Shown here one piece after another: positions 22,923-63,288 of a stretch of DNA of 64,000 nucleotides. Origin of the DNA: an uncultured Opitutia bacterium (GTDB lineage: Bacteria; Verrucomicrobiota; Verrucomicrobiia; Opitutales; Opitutaceae); contig CAIUWA010000016.1 of the NCBI GenBank assembly GCA_903902745.1, positions 62,001-126,000 on the forward strand, read 5' to 3'. A program made the position numbers and the translations under genes. Positions within the stretch are counted from its first letter, which is position 1. Every line of letters begins with the position of its first letter. Under the pieces are notes generated by a model, which did not search any database, had not been told where the DNA came from, and saw only the letters and a list, made by a program, of their open reading frames with translations.

Positions 22923-23045
22923 ATGCCGAGCCGTCATCGACCAGGCATCGGAATTTTTAGCCGCAAAAATGTGCAAGAAAGGGATGAAGGGACGGGAGGG
23001 GGAACGGATGTGAACGGGGAATCTTTCACTGCGGGATGATTTTTC

Positions 23046-23568
23046 GGATTATTGGCCGCAAAGAGGCGCAAAAAGCGCAAAAGGGAGTGGATGAATTCCG
23101 ATGCTGATATTTTTAAACTTTGTGATCACATCCGCCAAACCAGTTTCAAGCTGCAGTCCTATTTTCGCCATGGGCACCTCGAAAAGGTATACGAGAACGG
23201 ACTGGCTCATCGGCTGCGCAAGGCAGGCACAACCGTAATTCAGCAGCATCCGCTCAATGTCCTCGATGAAGATGGCACCGTTCTGGGCGAGTACCTGGCT
23301 GATCTTTTTGTCGAGGGGCGGCTGATCGTGGAATTAAAGGCCTGCAAAACCTTGCTCGATGAGCACGTCGCCCAGTTGCTCGGCTACCTCCGCTCCGCGC
23401 GGGTAGAACATGGATTGCTCATTAATTTTGGGTCCCCCAGGCTCCAAATCCGGAAGTATGTCCTGTCCGACACCATGCCGGCTCCGGCATCCGAGGCCCT
23501 CAATGAATGAGTCGATCAACCGTGGATCGCTTTTTGTGCTTTCTGCGCCTTTTTGCGGCCAATAATCC
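23046..23568. repeat. GCCGCAAAGAGGCGC inverted arms (family J) enclosing a gene
   Basis: Left arm 23,046-23,084 starts GGATTATTGGCCGCAAAGAG; right arm 23,528-23,568 ends CTTTTTGCGGCCAATAATCC. They are inverted copies of ~38 bp with only a few mismatches. The space between holds exactly one gene, the GxxExxY gene. A further degenerate unit lies at ~22,957-22,985. Confidence 0.88.
23091..23510 (+). CDS. GxxExxY protein
   Basis: A 139-residue member of the GxxExxY family, small proteins of unknown function common and multi-copy in Verrucomicrobia, Planctomycetes and Chloroflexi. The name-giving motif is GHLEKVYENGLAHRL near residue 29. Later come the block LADLFVEGRLIVELKACKTL, with the D...E-x-K pattern of PD-(D/E)xK nucleases, and LLINFGSPRLQIRKYV, both typical. 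ATG 23,091 has GGGAG just upstream; the 13 earlier in-frame codons (KRRKKRKRE) read through a repeat arm. The gene is the only content between the family J arms, which suggests the arms and gene move or are copied as a unit. The nuclease idea rests on motif shape only. Confidence 0.85.
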   Translation: MNSDADIFKLCDHIRQTSFKLQSYFRHGHLEKVYENGLAHRLRKAGTTVIQQHPLNVLDEDGTVLGEYLADLFVEGRLIVELKACKTLLDEHVAQLLGYLRSARVEHGLLINFGSPRLQIRKYVLSDTMPAPASEALNE

Positions 23569-40101: not shown

Positions 40102-40311
40102 TCATCGCGGAAGCGCGGAAGAAGGGAAACGCAGAATTCCGGCATCGCCCGCTGATTTCTTGATCGCGGATCAGTTTGTTGTAGCGGCGCTCTATGAGCG
40201 CCGATCTTCCCTAGCCGGCGGCCATAGACCGCCGCTACAATTTTTCAAACTTGGCCACGACTGAATCTCGGGCTTCCCGGTTTTTTCCGCTCCTTCGCGT
40301 TTCCGCGATAC
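40102..40311. repeat. CGCGGAAACGCG inverted arms (family I) enclosing a family L pair
   Basis: Outer arms 40,102-40,130 (ATCGCGGAAGCGCGGAAGAA) and 40,285-40,311 (TCCTTCGCGTTTCCGCGATA). Inside lies an inverted pair of family L units: 40,179-40,203 (TTGTAGCGGCGCTCTATGAG) and 40,215-40,240 (CATAGACCGCCGCTACAA). This is a second example of nesting of two families; the ~300-base spacer has no gene. Confidence 0.8.
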
Positions 40312-50567: not shown

Positions 50568-50731
50568 AATCGCGGAAACGCGAAAGTGCGGAAAGACGGA
50601 ATTCGAGCGGTCGAGCGTGTGTTCCTCGCCCGCCGAAAAGCTCTATCTGTTCCGCAGGAGAAAAATCGTGCCCGAATCCCAATCTGACCGATCCGATCCC
50701 CCGTTTTTCGCCCCTCCGCGCTTCCGCGATT
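50568..50731. repeat. CGCGGAAACGCG inverted arms (family I, copy 2)
   Basis: Left arm 50,568-50,601 (ATCGCGGAAACGCGAAAGTG) and right arm 50,709-50,731 (CCTCCGCGCTTCCGCGATT). It fills most of the spacer before the DUF3300 gene. Confidence 0.8.
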
Positions 50732-63192: not shown

Positions 63193-63288
63193 GATTTCAC
63201 GCAGAGGCGCAGTGACGCAAAGAAAACCCAAGCGAGCCGAGGATATTCCGGTTCTTTGCCCCGCGGCTCTGCGCCTCTGCGCGAAAAC
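63193..63288. repeat. CGCAGAGGCG-type inverted arms (family B, copy 5)
   Basis: Left arm 63,193-63,226 (ATTTCACGCAGAGGCGCAGT) and right arm 63,251-63,288 (TCTGCGCCTCTGCGCGAAAA), in the gap between the PL26-like and GH51-like genes, so the gene run is punctuated by this family. Confidence 0.85.

Follow-up and report, generated by a model that had tools for sequence, protein, structure and literature searches.

Many environmental bacteria have a small gene of the GxxExxY family that codes for a nuclease-like protein. It is usually enclosed by two inverted repeats, and the short heptamers that compose these arms follow the protein, not the genome in which it resides. We interpret the gene and its arms as a minimal mobile hairpin element: the encoded nuclease would read its own heptamers and mobilise the element, and dispersed gene-less hairpins would be its non-autonomous derivatives. 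We assign this reading a probability of about 0.6. The evidence comes from a 64,000-nucleotide stretch of DNA (the window; G000:C16:62001-126000, G000 being the source genome), from 194 genomes of the source phylum and from other sequence records.

Anatomy of the element in the window

The initial annotation of this DNA described the GxxExxY gene as the sole cargo between two inverted arms, and the description holds. The arms are 39 nt long and 92% complementary, the 449 nt between them contain a single open reading frame and a few bases, and with both arms the element spans 527 bp. In the left arm the three heptamers are separated by AGG and then by AG. The arms exceed chance: the inverted-repeat score of the locus is 63, and 0 of 86 control positions scored above 28 in the first arm scoring. 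The parts of the element and its surroundings are as follows.

22953-22975, + strand: degenerate extra outer arm that could pair with part of the right arm (83% complementary)
23003-23043, + strand: leader outside the left arm, common to the relative in G195:C2 (blastn, alignment)
23044-23082, + strand: left arm, 39 nt; outer TCGGATTATTGGC, then heptamers CGCAAAG, CGCAAAA and CGCAAAA
23057-23082 and 23532-23557: heptamer chains, three heptamers per arm (motif scan)
23083-23087, + strand: candidate Shine-Dalgarno-like GGGAG immediately after the left arm, read from the sequence
23091-23510, + strand: GxxExxY gene, ATG at 23091, stop codon ending at 23510; 139 aa
23532-23570, - strand: right arm, an inverted copy of 39 nt; heptamers CGCAAAA, CGCAGAA and CACAAAA read inward

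The degenerate outer arm at 22953-22975 is a detail overlooked in the initial annotation. In an Rfam scan of the window only tRNA attained the gathering score, and the element is intergenic and lies outside rRNA.

Hairpins of this layout with nothing but a loop between the arms occur at other places, as had also been claimed. Three such hairpins and two weaker pairs lie in the window, none of them assigned a strand.

40106-40307: weak gene-less pair, score 25; CGCGGAA heptamers as at the resident gene L011/L350
43743-43850: gene-less hairpin, score 41; outer TTGGCC as in the window arms, heptamers CACGAAA and CACAAAA
44811-44934: gene-less hairpin; CGCAGAG-type arms of 28 nt with 68 nt between them
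50571-50728: weak gene-less pair, score 26; CGCGGAA heptamers
63195-63286: gene-less hairpin; CGCAGAG-type arms of 24 nt with 44 nt between them

Window-like arms surround short loops at 10 further places in the source genome. Within the genus, the CGCAAAA family numbers 10 gene-less places in G000, which has the gene, at least 31 in G195, which has a relative of the window gene, and one in G194, which has no close relative of it; these hand counts agree with the link between repeats and gene described below.

Several of these repeats are compound. At L291 (G000:C11:62100-63200) three CGCAAAG hairpins lie about 230 bp apart with similar intervening DNA, which is probably a tandem duplication. 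On two G195 contigs (L299:1547-1734 and L309:165-356) the loop of a CACAGAG hairpin contains a CGCAAAG hairpin, the same composite in both places, which counts in favour of mobility. At G163:C43:35550-36170 about 0.5 kb is flanked on either side by outer CACAGAG and inner CGCAAAG arms, which look nested around a single insert. Other repeats are present as well. One that is abundant in the genus and unlike the heptamer arms (L340:5229-5390) has dozens of matches in G195 and G194, and a palindrome adjoining a heptamer hairpin at L304:126-210, GTAGGGACGGGCGGCC...GGCCGCCCGTCCCTAC, possibly belongs to another repeat family.

Arms around GxxExxY genes in other genomes

The arrangement is general, and the expectation that arms would be commoner at GxxExxY genes than at other genes was borne out. 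In a pooled and de-duplicated set, inverted arms scoring at least 30 flank 130 of 193 GxxExxY genes (66/112 in phylum genomes and 64/81 elsewhere) versus 7 of 331 control open reading frames, with a control maximum of 52; the other 63 of the 193 genes have no arms at that score. Eight of 201 genes had been dropped from this test for too little flank, and none of the 193 came from loci fetched for their arrays. Taken separately, 29 of 34 phylum loci reached a score of 30 versus 0 of the 86 control positions, these loci being the best-scoring family matches and biased towards typical members. Among other records, 52 of 74 GxxExxY loci reached 30 (6 of 80 were too near a contig end) versus 10 of 230 control open reading frames, with a control maximum of 64; two of the top four controls are, by translation, GxxExxY genes themselves. 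The genes from other records were chosen by a peptide pattern and by likeness to the window's alignment, and are likewise biased towards typical members.

The arms are made up of tandem CRCNRAN heptamers with spacers of 1-3 nt. Counted without alignment, at least two spaced CRCNRAN heptamers are present on both sides of 112 of 194 GxxExxY genes (65/112 in phylum genomes, 47/82 elsewhere) versus 1 of 339 control open reading frames. Armed genes also occur in records titled Acidobacteria, Bacteroidetes, Chloroflexi, Planctomycetota and Proteobacteria, among others.

A second family is bracketed by arms of another kind. Genes of the four-helix-bundle family PF05635 (23S_rRNA_IVP) have inverted arms scoring at least 30 in 22 of 35 cases, and in 16 of 30 loci (L172-L201) in a separate scoring. 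These arms consist of a different tandem repeat of period 7, for example AGTGGATAGTGGATAGTG or GAGAACGGAGAACAG, and CRCNRAN arrays were found on both sides of 0 of 33 PF05635 genes. The PF05635 loci look like a second class of element with its own motif. That two protein families each have their own class of arm speaks against arms being something that small genes have in general.

Heptamer arrays and the gene occur together

The GxxExxY gene is above the cut-off in 102 of the 194 genomes of the source phylum, with up to 12 matches per genome. The array pattern CRCNRAKNNCRCNRAKNNCRCNRAK was counted in the same genomes and gave 2129 matches, against about 41 for the control pattern read backwards. 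This one pattern, which takes in heptamers of the CACAGAG, CGCAAAG, CACGAAT and CGCAGAT kind, matches in 112 of the 194 genomes. With gene presence defined as a match at E 0.001 or better, at least three arrays occur in 74 of 103 genomes with the gene and in 6 of 91 without it (odds ratio 36, Fisher p 4e-22, with genomes treated as independent), and 2048 of the 2129 arrays sit in gene-bearing genomes. PF05635 shows a weaker link: at least three arrays occur in 72 of 140 genomes with PF05635 and 8 of 54 without, and in only 3 of 46 genomes that have PF05635 and lack GxxExxY.

There are exceptions. The six genomes with at least three arrays in which the gene was not detected have as many as 29 (G142) and 17 (G115). 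G194 has 57 array matches and only two GxxExxY genes, and its commonest heptamers, by eye CACGAAA and CACTGAT/CACAGAT, match no arms seen at these two genes. For such arrays without a cognate gene, relics or mobilisation in trans must be assumed.

Arms follow the protein

The arms follow the protein and not the genome. Among pairs of genes from different genomes, the arms are more alike in 5-mers the higher the identity of the proteins (rho 0.217; computed on 128 of the 130 genes scoring at least 30), compared with -0.002 +/- 0.031 after permutation, and 0 of 200 permutations reached the observed value. From the 20-29% identity class to that of at least 80%, the arm cosine was 0.061, 0.064, 0.089, 0.149, 0.285, 0.420 and 0.579, the top two classes comprising 16 and 4 pairs. 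DNA of equal length taken 15 nt outside the arms gave 0.052-0.113 across the same classes. Gene pairs within one genome that are less than 35% identical have a mean arm cosine of 0.042 (n=18). Heptamers differ between loci, with CGCAAAA in the window, CGCGGAT at L235 of G122 and CACGAAT at L241 of G155.

The individual heptamer positions were placed on a protein tree of 113 of the 201 genes, namely those whose protein has 100 residues or more and whose two arms have at least two heptamers each; 48 of the 113 share their genome with another gene of the set. For base 7 this tree requires 8 changes, compared with a mean of 37.8 after shuffling and 20.9 (minimum 14) after shuffling within genomes. 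Base 5 changes 23 times (shuffled 36.3, within genomes 30.0) and base 4 changes 30 times (43.3 and 35.6), values reached in 0 of 300 within-genome shuffles in either case. Base 2, with 28 changes against 35.6 shuffled and 28.4 within genomes (153/300), shows no tracking beyond genome identity.

Lineages of the protein have their own heptamers: base 7 is G in 60 of 61 loci of T98 proteins and in 0 of 30 loci of N98 proteins. Mutual information pairs residue 98 with base 7 (z 32) and residue 12 with base 5 (z 10). As candidates for direct contact between residue and base, both pairs were rejected. Residue 98 (T/S versus others) changes once, at a single deep split of the 113-protein tree; changes at residue 12 and base 5 coincide no more than by chance (372/2000); and in tests restricted to 55 disjoint nearest pairs the signal was weak (residue 98 and base 7: p 0.055). 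The coupling is therefore claimed at the level of lineages only.

The feature conserved between the two arms of a locus is the heptamer and not the whole stem. Left and right arms of one locus are mismatched at 95 of 1540 heptamer positions and at 131 of 286 positions in the 1-3-nt spacers, or at 89 of 952 and 61 of 142 in the alignment-based set; the loci compared were 60 with equal-length arms and at least two heptamers, or 72 with at least three heptamers on both sides. Selection by motif accounts for part of the agreement in the heptamers; at the free positions (2, 4, 5 and 7), mismatches number 91 of 864 within a locus versus 53.6% between loci, and a left arm ranks its own right arm at a median of 1.5 among the 72 loci. 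Since the spacers mismatch while the heptamers agree, pairing is not the conserved thing. A constraint on base pairing would not be expected to spare the heptamers alone, and the pattern would fit recognition by a protein.

A predicted PD-(D/E)XK nuclease

The window protein matches the family models TIGR04256 GxxExxY (108.5 bits, cut-off 35) and PF13366 PDDEXK_3 (95.3 bits, cut-off 22). These were the sole matches in Pfam and NCBIfam searches, which returned no HUH/Y1 tyrosine transposase, PF05635 or DDE transposase. By sequence, no real relative was found in the PDB (best E 0.2). The leading PDB matches of an AlphaFold model of the protein (pLDDT 91.4) are PD-(D/E)XK nucleases, among them SSO0001 (4ic1, Foldseek E 4.4e-4), the AdnAB nuclease (E 3.4e-4), lambda exonuclease and Hjc; comparison of the model with 4ic1 (VIA) gave Z 9.4 and an rmsd of 7.1, with 110 aligned. 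The predicted fold is that of a PD-(D/E)XK nuclease, in keeping with the proposal, made from an E-x-K block in the protein, of a nuclease fold.

Nine residues are invariant in 34 of 34 sequences (G28, E31, Y34, D71, E81, K83, Y99, N112 and F113), and Q95 is kept in at least 90% of the 34. E31, D71, E81 and K83 supply the acidic residues and the lysine (D, E-x-K) that make up the putative catalytic site of this fold. Open reading frames of 284 and 271 aa at G032:C17:13393-14139 and G029:C1:424059-424805 have two GxxExxY matches in tandem and are possibly a two-domain form.

Comparison of sites between species

All comparisons of sites are between species, and the loss of a copy is not always distinguishable from an insertion. 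A relative of the window element lies in G195:C2 (assembly 72% complete, 4% contaminated), where a gene identical at 92 of 124 residues (74%) has arms of the same family and shares the leader; its left arm is degenerate and its right side is a complete hairpin. Between the window and G195:C2, blastn aligned 23003-23473 and 23524-23562 and nothing further in the 4 kb compared. No long DNA match to the host genes that surround the G195:C2 copy turned up in either G000 or G194, hence no reciprocal empty site was found. The window site itself is without the element in the congeners G194:C58 and G195:C35; the orthology of these sites is likely, with the caveat that the flanking gene families have paralogues. 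Base-exact ends of an insertion were not found there, the intergenic DNA of the congeners being too diverged.

Further comparisons come from genus g6. At site L240, G122 has a 464-bp insert of arms and gene between a TGA and an ATG, and both relatives are without it; their stop and start codons nearly abut, which would allow about 1 bp of duplicated target at the most, and none was observed. At L241/L234 site 1, the arms of G155 enclose the gene, and almost identical arms in G122 (AACCACGAATGGACACGAAT...) enclose a loop of 26 nt; 1.6 kb from this site G122 has arms and gene and G155 has neither. At L237 and L232, arms and gene in G122 correspond to a heptamer hairpin without the gene in G155, which scores 24 at either site against a cut of 30, and to an empty site in G075, and the gene-bearing and gene-less arms differ in sequence. 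L247 has arms and gene in G155 and other DNA in the two relatives. In G122, related copies at different sites are 71% (L235/L236), 65% (L237/L238) and 62% (L232/L233) identical.

At the L233/L246 junction, two species have genes identical at 57 of 116 residues (49%) with different arms, in flanking DNA that is 79-85% identical (226/266 and 212/269). This may be a hotspot, or gene and arms may have been replaced together.

These comparisons suggest that the gene shifts position together with its arms; that the two would form a unit, with sites lacking it in relatives, had been a prediction of the initial annotation, and L240 and, with its caveat of paralogy, the window site agree with it. Movement is not frequent, since 16 of 34 compared genes fall in seven syntenic groups between species, some of them across genera (L238-L207-L344, L235-L346, L242-L248-L345). 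With one query protein, matches were found in 6 of 72,556 plasmid records and in 0 of 50,697 phage records, and two GxxExxY loci lie in viral contigs; none of these helped to find empty sites. A search of PHROGs gave no convincing match.

Proposed mechanism and alternatives

The element has two inverted ends, in each of which a locus-specific heptamer is repeated about three times, and a lone gene between them for a small predicted PD-(D/E)XK nuclease. In the mechanism that we favour, the nuclease would recognise its own heptamers in both arms; spaced 8-10 nt apart, these would lie roughly on one face of the helix. It would then bring the two arms together and cut at or near them, and the element, with or without the gene, would go to another intergenic site. 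Gene-less copies, which outnumber gene-bearing ones, would persist as short hairpins, and the gene-bearing copy would often be sedentary and vertically inherited, moving occasionally, as RAYT genes do. Binding, cutting, synapsis and mobilisation in trans are steps that we infer from the anatomy, the specific association, the coupling of arms to protein and the changes of place described above.

Homing endonuclease genes invade their own cut sites, and the chief rival to this mechanism, though in our estimate an unlikely one, is that the gene-less hairpins are the natural target of a homing nuclease, which cuts them at the heptamers, after which repair between matching arms brings in a copy of the gene. 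The three orthologous sites at which arms and gene in one species face a gene-less hairpin in the other (L241/L234 site 1, L237 and L232) would be expected of homing, as would the nearly identical arms of the two species at the first of them and the diverged genes with different arms in conserved flanks at the L233/L246 junction. At L240 and at the window site, however, the relatives lack the arms too, which implies that arms arrive or leave with the gene, and at L237 and L232 the gene-bearing and gene-less arms differ in sequence. It is less probable again that the gene is a passenger, captured between hairpins that another enzyme, such as a tyrosine transposase, moves. Arrays without a cognate gene, in G194 and in the six genomes in which the gene was not detected, would be explained in this way, but a passenger needs no match between the heptamers and its own protein tree, which the heptamers track rather than the genome, and PF05635 genes have a different class of arm.

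The arms could instead be regulatory or RNA structures, such as an operator, an attenuator or a stem processed as in rRNA intervening sequences, around a gene that is not itself mobile. The start codon lies just behind the left arm, which could control translation, and the layout resembles that of the intervening sequences; yet pairing is not conserved (131/286 spacer mismatches versus 95/1540 in the heptamers), gene-less copies are dispersed, and gene and arms stand at different places in related species, and we regard this explanation as improbable, slightly more so than a passenger gene. Least probable, though by a small margin, is a defence or toxin nuclease whose arms mark or spare the host. 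The PD-(D/E)XK fold and the multiple divergent copies per genome would suit such a role, but a PADLOC search gave no convincing match (best E 0.0047), phage and plasmid records contain almost no matches to the one query, and gene-less hairpins would have no obvious part in it.

The mobile hairpin element is the best explanation. The broader interpretation in the initial annotation, that the GxxExxY gene moves with the arms or makes them and could be the protein missing for this class of repeats, is supported: genome-level co-occurrence and covariation of arms and protein fit it, and the protein may make or mobilise the arms. The six of 91 genomes in which the gene was not detected and the G194 arrays that match no arms at its two genes are exceptions to it. 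A stronger statement, that these elements constitute a new class of mobile DNA in which a stand-alone PD-(D/E)XK nuclease of about 120-140 aa, with no known transposase or recombinase, propagates itself and large families of gene-less hairpins in many bacterial phyla by way of a protein-specific heptamer, is tentative, and we hold it at somewhat less than even odds.

Heptamer arrays are now linked to one uncharacterised protein family, which gains a testable job, and the 113 matched pairs of protein and heptamer are a natural data set. A further possibility is that the GxxExxY protein is a small nuclease whose sequence specificity can be read.

Relation to known systems

The window gene is a member of TIGR04256 GxxExxY and PF13366 PDDEXK_3, both of which are family models. 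Those parts of the literature on GxxExxY and PF13366 that were available describe neither arms nor a function, and a literature search that covered little subscription content found no description of arms or heptamer arrays. In the available text, GxxExxY is named as a gene adjoining a reverse transcriptase, and the replication and repair genes reported for the algal virus CpV-BQ1 include one for a GxxExxY protein (PMC12085832).

A homing endonuclease gene would invade a cognate gene-less site; at the three orthologous sites where a gene-less hairpin faces arms and gene, change in either direction could have produced what is seen. Intervening sequences of rRNA have a paired-arm layout, and those of 23S rRNA resemble the GxxExxY element in having inverted arms around one small open reading frame. 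They differ in that the GxxExxY element lies outside rRNA, encodes another protein and has spaced CRCNRAN heptamers in place of a period-7 motif; the available text describes the open reading frame of 23S rRNA intervening sequences as the four-helix-bundle PF05635 (PMC11270868).

A further comparison is with TIRtrons and TIRYT, in which, according to the part of the source available, one gene lies between terminal inverted repeats and some of these repeats also make up small families, but the genes are tyrosine transposases and some share the motif GGGGWSAS (PMC3733652). The GxxExxY element shares with MITEs and DDE elements that gene-less copies have the terminal inverted repeats of the gene-bearing element, and differs from them in that no DDE transposase matched; a target duplication, for which L240 leaves room of about 1 bp at most, was not seen. 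MITEs pair with DDE insertion sequences as their non-autonomous copies. A definition of MITEs is given in the accessible part of PMC3116915.

The closest parallel is with REPIN-RAYT systems. Both have short, dispersed inverted-repeat hairpins in extragenic DNA and a dedicated gene with those repeats on its flanks, and in both the gene copies within one genome are distinct and inheritance is often vertical; in the accessible text, Bertels and Rainey (PMC3116915) describe distinct single RAYT copies in one genome that are tied to dispersed hairpins. The differences lie in the enzyme, which for GxxExxY is a predicted PD-(D/E)XK nuclease and not an HUH/Y1 transposase, and in the ends, which are formed by about three spaced direct heptamers per arm; the GTAG tag of REP repeats is absent from the window arms. 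By enzyme class and tag the GxxExxY element is not a member of the REPIN-RAYT systems, and by analogy it may work as they do. If the nuclease mobilises the arrays, the GxxExxY element would amount to a counterpart of REPINs that relies on an unrelated enzyme.
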